Origin: a virus
Virus record (IMG/VR): IMGVR_UViG_3300034407_000446
Coordinates: 1-23,654 of that record
Strand: one strand, 5' to 3'
Length of the DNA stretch: 23,654 nucleotides
Positions 867 through 1,046 of the stretch are shown here, piece after piece; the stretch's first letter is position 1, and each line of letters begins with the position of its first letter. The notes below the pieces were generated by a model. It was given only the letters and a program-made list of their open reading frames with translations. It did no database searches and was not told where the DNA came from. Made by a program: the position numbers and the translations under genes.

Positions 867-1046
867 ATGAAGATACGTAGAGTAAACCCAGTAGCAAAAG
901 CAGTAGCTCGTAATCGCCCCCGTACTCAGGTTATACCTAACAAAAAAGGTAAAGGTTCATACAACAGAAAGAAAGGACGAGAGGATGCAGTCTCAGTCAC
1001 AATATCAAAAGATGCGTATAACAAAATTAACAACACCGAAACCTAA
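867..1046 (+). CDS. arfA: ArfA-like alternative ribosome-rescue factor
   Basis: This 59-residue basic protein carries the ArfA signature NKKGKGSYNRKKG at residues 25-37. Recalled E. coli ArfA has NKKGKGSYMRKGK, and the two align without gaps for about 32 residues, starting at N7 here, with the same 19-residue distance from that Asn to the first Lys of the core. ArfA binds ribosomes stalled on mRNAs lacking a stop codon: its basic tail sits in the empty mRNA channel and it recruits RF2 to release the peptide. ATG at 867 is chosen because residue 1 then begins the conserved MKIRR; an in-frame ATG at 858 would add MVV. E. coli ArfA is longer and is controlled by a hairpin in its own mRNA; I see no such hairpin here. 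Activity is unproven. Confidence 0.75.
   Translation: MKIRRVNPVAKAVARNRPRTQVIPNKKGKGSYNRKKGREDAVSVTISKDAYNKINNTET

Follow-up and report, generated by a model that had tools for sequence, protein, structure and literature searches.

The short open reading frame (ORF) at 867–1046 of a 23,654-base stretch from a virus record (the whole of which is called the window here) raises the question of whether a marine phage encodes its own relative of the ribosome rescue factor ArfA, and whether such a protein could still act as ArfA does. E. coli ArfA, which has little structure of its own away from the ribosome, releases ribosomes stuck on broken mRNAs. Phages rely on the ribosomes of their hosts, and phage ribosome rescue has been named in passing, with no functional test found in the literature searched. 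The DNA polymerase of the window phage shares 65% identity with its counterparts in the Roseobacter phages CRP-345 and CRP-1 and the SAR116 phage HMO-2011. Hence, going by this identity, the window phage is of the HMO-2011 type, and its host is probably an alphaproteobacterium. The features considered are as follows.

542–570, + strand: sigma-70-type promoter, TTGACA-17-TATATT, 11/12 matches, ∼300 bases upstream of the arfA-like gene
602–808, + strand: 68-aa ORF between promoter and arfA-like gene, conserved at 97–100% in the closest relatives
867–1046, + strand: arfA-like gene, 59 aa, ATG start, own TAA stop
885–941, + strand: N-half NPVAKAVARNRPRTQVIPN, residues 7–25, in gapless alignment with ArfA residues 14–32, the RF2-side half
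942–974, + strand: basic core KKGKGSYNRKK, residues 26–36, counterpart of the ArfA mRNA-channel segment (structural role from PMC5378476)
985–1119, + strand: 44-aa basic ORF in another frame, overlapping the 3′ end of the arfA-like gene, kept in all seven close relatives checked

The 59-residue product has the sequence MKIRRVNPVAKAVARNRPRTQVIPNKKGKGSYNRKKGREDAVSVTISKDAYNKINNTET. A second in-frame ATG is present at 858; the start was placed at 867, since the near relatives L010–L013 (L numbers denote viral or chromosomal loci) lack the ATG at 858 and retain that at 867. Near relatives share gene neighbours with the window, among them a DUF932 gene, a cell-wall hydrolase gene and a pyrimidine-dimer glycosylase-like gene. 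The ORF codes for a real protein. Purifying selection was seen, with a median dN/dS of 0.09 over 87 usable pairs (some of the loci being core-seeded) and with synonymous change inside KGKGSYNRKK. The overlapping 44-aa ORF is rich in arginine and lysine. An inverted repeat, GTCCAA-CA-TTGGAC, with no T run, lies at 811–832, immediately 5′ of the arfA-like gene, and is retained in some close relatives and missing in others.

The sequence-only reading of this ORF as an ArfA-like phage protein was to be checked by an HMM search against the ArfA family. That search returned ArfA (PF03889) as the sole Pfam match of the window protein, with an E-value of 1.3e-5 among 24,736 models; the score of 25.0 bits is just below (by 0.5 bit) the gathering cut-off of 25.5 bits, and the match (residues 19–36) is confined to the core. 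The same model matched 29 of 34 diverse family members (best E 3.3e-11), and several relatives pass the cut-off with 29.6–42.9 bits, the maximum being reached by intermediate phage proteins. A single-sequence phmmer search of the PDB placed ArfA in all six best positions at E 0.4–0.6, and the family profile found ArfA there at E 4.6e-7, with nothing but ArfA below E 1. An HMM of gammaproteobacterial ArfA, applied to 14,662 ORFs taken from the viral loci and the window, matched 72, all with a GKGSY-type core, and the window ORF was among them at E 6.4e-6. No NCBIfam model matched the window protein or any of the 34 relatives, the PHROGs search gave nothing below E 0.14, and the window protein had no profile match to DUF7230 (PF23876). 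With the 59-aa protein as query, tblastn against named phages yielded only E-values above 1, and family-like queries were needed.

The claim that KKGKGSYNRK lies in a gapless register with E. coli ArfA was borne out: the distance from the conserved N to KGKGSY is 20 residues in E. coli ArfA, in the SAR11 proteins described below, in the intermediates and in the window protein. Profile–profile comparison by HHalign connected E. coli-type ArfA with a mixed alphaproteobacterial–phage set of intermediates (98.0%, 37 columns), these intermediates with the window clade (98.9%, 38 columns), and the SAR11 proteins with the window clade (98.4%, 36 columns). With the N-halves alone, the two main steps, ArfA to intermediates and intermediates to window clade, gave 83.5% and 94.5%, and the direct comparison of the window clade with E. 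coli-type ArfA gave 0.2%. Column permutation over the 20 residues before the core gave p ∼5e-5 for each of these steps, and p 0.009 (0.031 without lysines) for the direct comparison. The CRP-212 copy sits in another frame of a gene with an acidic stretch, where lysine and arginine codons are favoured by chance; the HHalign chain was therefore repeated without it, and the result held. Together, the profiles and the chain of intermediates support the window protein as a relative of ArfA, the direct link outside the core being weak, and it is on this evidence that the original assignment stands.

A single IMG/VR scan found 69 loci with relatives (about 70 viral loci), almost all of which encode NP[VI]A[KR]...R..QVVP.KKGKGSYNRKK; part of this set was found with core-derived seeds, so that the conservation of the core there is partly selected for. 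Relatives were also located in RXM, HTVC027P, OspM_OC, Caulobacter phage Cr30, Sinorhizobium phage phiM12, Roseobacter phage CRP-1 and HMO-2011. Among 12 records of HMO-2011-type or related phages, nine had a match, and HTVC033P was weak (E 0.003). No gene is annotated for the copies in Cr30 and HMO-2011, nor is the one in CRP-1 called as a gene of its own. Phage ArfA has been named earlier for g10 of Citromicrobium phage RXM (PMC8953757) and gp30 of Pelagibacter phage HTVC027P (PMC12753301), and annotations already name it in Ochrobactrum phage OspM_OC (p093, in a note only) and Pseudoalteromonas phage J2-1. Phage ArfA as such is thus already known; relatives are widespread in phages of Alphaproteobacteria, and what is new is that most copies there are unannotated. 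ArfA also occurs in the gammaproteobacterial phages Arash (Salmonella), pf16 (Pseudomonas) and J2-1, and the gammaproteobacterial-type ArfA of Arash (L289:1417-1641) is annotated as ribosomal protein L2. ArfA-like ORFs were further seen in the structural-gene region (L080:1498-1623 and L298–L300; CRP-212, CRP-603, CRP-207 and CRP-2); those of CRP-212 and CRP-2 overlap annotated genes in another frame and are either overprinted genes or an artefact of acidic coding. In L048–L051, the N-half (INPIARALALSRRRTQVIPNKKK) is retained and the KGKGSY core is wholly lost.

Loss of KGKGSY in homologues had been named in advance as a finding that would speak against an ArfA assignment. The KKGKGSY core is invariant in close relatives, but it is replaced by KKGNKRK in CRP-1 and CRP-345, and by DKTKYNRKK in a sister group comprising HMO-2011 and many relatives (158 loci found, 80 kept; L083:1001-1156 and L204–L283, with the DUF7230-like L189 and L190). 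The loss in the sister group does not refute ArfA kinship, since the J2-1 protein (L290:1483-1638), in which RDKTKYRRKKKH comes after an ArfA N-half of the E. coli type, also ends in DKTKYRRKKKH. The joining of the two forms in J2-1 suggests one kind of protein with two alternative cores. The HMO-2011 form aligned with the window clade at 99.5% in HHalign and with E. coli-type ArfA directly at 1.5%; its link to ArfA hence rests on the intermediates and the J2-1 protein. The HMO-2011 copy matched Pfam DUF7230 (PF23876) at E 4.3e-5 and 24.0 bits, under the cut-off of 27, and alphaproteobacterial genomes contain DUF7230 members with sequences such as NPVAKKLQSRRYRPKVAADRTKYSRKRRHKK. The DKTKYNRKK form would thus newly link ArfA to DUF7230.

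Whether the window protein could work with RF2 depends on its N-half. In the ArfA structures, the basic segment enters the mRNA channel, while L19, L24 and F25 hold RF2 at W319, V198 and F217 (PMC5378476). In the gapless register these three residues align with A12, R17 and P18 of the window protein, so the hydrophobic patch is not kept; the window clade has A/R/P or A/R/R at these positions. ArfA position 18 holds a small residue, and A18T inactivates the protein. Opposite A18, the window protein has K11 in the gapless register, and A10 or A12 when a one-residue shift is allowed. The Lys-His motif that follows the core in ArfA is absent from the window protein (YNRKKGRE) and is present in L189, L190 and CRP-2. 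On the host side, RF2 of SAR11 and of two other alphaproteobacterial genomes (comparison rows SAR11b, G163 and G233; the SAR11a_RF2 row was left out as a wrong ORF) was found to keep V198, the RHTSF strand with F217, and W319; alphaproteobacterial RF1 lacks the W319 tryptophan. Analogy with ArfA supports binding of the window protein in the mRNA channel. Recruitment of RF2 is predicted, and its activation appears likely but uncertain.

In E. coli, a hairpin causes arfA to be expressed from non-stop mRNA, which has not been shown for all ArfA members. The arfA-like gene of the window ends with a normal TAA stop, and no hairpin of this kind was predicted within it (fold z-score 0.78); its synthesis should hence not depend on tmRNA failure. 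The strong promoter claimed about 290 bases upstream of the gene was recovered as TTGACA-N17-TATATT with 11 of 12 matches, in a scan whose total of 8 sites against 7.6 in shuffled DNA shows no enrichment. The best reading of these features is expression from an early promoter, free of the control by non-stop mRNA that governs arfA in E. coli. A SAR11 phage homologue named ArfA, gp30 of HTVC027P, is expressed both early and late in infection (PMC12753301).

It is reasonably probable, on the comparisons above, that the product of the window gene is a phage ribosome rescue factor of the ArfA type that recruits RF2. Where a ribosome has run to the 3′ end of a broken mRNA and stalled, the KKGKGSYNRKK segment would insert into the vacant mRNA channel, and the N-half would keep host RF2 in the A site and bring about its open form, upon which RF2 would release the nascent chain and leave the ribosome recyclable. 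Unlike E. coli ArfA, the protein would be produced without waiting for tmRNA to fail. The likely benefit would be that ribosomes are kept available when host transcripts are broken down in the course of takeover or cleaved by RNase toxins of the host; both peptide release and a gain to the phage are predicted here from sequence.

The same observations bear on other explanations. A diverged relative that still plugs the mRNA channel and no longer activates RF2, competing with tmRNA-SmpB or ArfB or inhibiting translation, would account for a kept basic core beside a lost L19/L24/F25 patch and for the weak similarity of the N-half to E. coli ArfA. Such a plug is unlikely, as NPVAKA...R..QVVP is conserved across many phages and so is under selection, intermediates grade into PLFR and PKYR forms, and the RF2 docking residues of the hosts are intact. 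The missing patch also bears on an ArfA-type factor that uses RF1, or RF1 together with RF2, like Francisella ArfT, because the strict use of RF2 by ArfA lies in that tryptophan-binding patch; but no sign of RF1 binding was seen in the sequence, alphaproteobacterial RF2 keeps the docking residues, and use of RF1 is considered quite unlikely.

Two further explanations concern benefit and origin. The early promoter and constitutive design would suit a factor that has the biochemistry given above as the best explanation and serves the phage mainly by letting it survive host RNase toxins which cleave mRNA on the ribosome, and ArfA does act on truncated mRNAs (PMC8012679). A toxin-linked context was not found, however, and counter-defence as the main benefit is judged very unlikely. 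Since short lysine-rich sequences readily give weak matches, and only the core ties the window protein directly to E. coli ArfA, a short basic protein that binds RNA or DNA, has no tie to ribosome rescue and gained its KGKGSY-like stretch by convergence was also weighed. The shared 20-residue spacing, the graded intermediates and the lack of false matches in 14,662 ORFs make convergence highly improbable.

The idea that ArfA belongs mainly to gamma- and betaproteobacteria and that alphaproteobacteria go without it was upheld in part. It fits a published survey in which arfA was present in none of 2,376 alphaproteobacterial genomes (PMC11633108), but ArfA-like genes were found on SAR11 chromosomes, a new observation that goes against that survey. 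PF03889 matched 68 of 99 Pelagibacteraceae species, once in each, with 49 over the cut-off and scores up to 32.4 bits; across 289 alphaproteobacterial genomes the cut-off was exceeded in six. At each of 13 SAR11 loci examined, the gene lies between a YggS-type gene and a pfkB-type kinase gene, and this constant placement indicates that it is chromosomal. These genes encode 35–46 aa, some with apparent TTG starts (L092:4998-5105, L097, L094 and ten more Pelagibacteraceae loci). Among 41 SAR11 genomes, searches recovered SmpB in 33 and tmRNA in 35.

If the family works as proposed, very common marine phages carry a rescue factor of their own that is independent of tmRNA; the SAR11 chromosomal copies would also alter the current picture of where ArfA occurs, and through the DKTKY form DUF7230 would gain a testable function. 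A broader view can be offered only tentatively and is rather doubtful: that the phage clade has kept the ArfA channel plug and replaced the RF2-activating patch, making it a mechanistically distinct rescue factor or plug (one that opens RF2 by a different route, uses RF1 or blocks trans-translation) and part of a broader ArfA lineage of alphaproteobacteria, DUF7230 and the SAR11 factor included.

Among known systems, Bacillus BrfA follows the same working idea, with a basic tail in the mRNA channel and recruitment of RF2, but its authors reported no sequence or structural homology to ArfA, and its N-terminus is helical (PMC6881298). The annotated ArfAs of alphaproteobacterial phages share the NP.A motif and the basic core with the window protein; RXM has PAFR and OspM_OC has LLFR where the window clade has R/P residues, and the phage types differ. 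The HMO-2011/DUF7230 form resembles the window clade in its N-half (NPVAKA...RRR.QVVP), its YNRKK end and its phage group, and differs in having DKTKY for KKGKGSY and in being three residues shorter; Pfam gives it no function. The SAR11 chromosomal proteins (MKKRN.FAKDL..PKYRKRIVKPKKGKGSFKRKKK) have the same spacing as the window protein but keep an aromatic residue (Y), lie mostly above the Pfam cut-off and occupy a fixed locus by the pfkB-type kinase. Compared with E. coli ArfA (PF03889), the window protein lacks the RF2-contact patch and the Lys-His motif and has a shorter N-terminus, and its gene differs from E. coli arfA in the normal stop codon and the absence of the non-stop-mRNA hairpin; both proteins are small and basic, with a KKGKGSYxRK core, the same 20-residue spacing and a gapless register.
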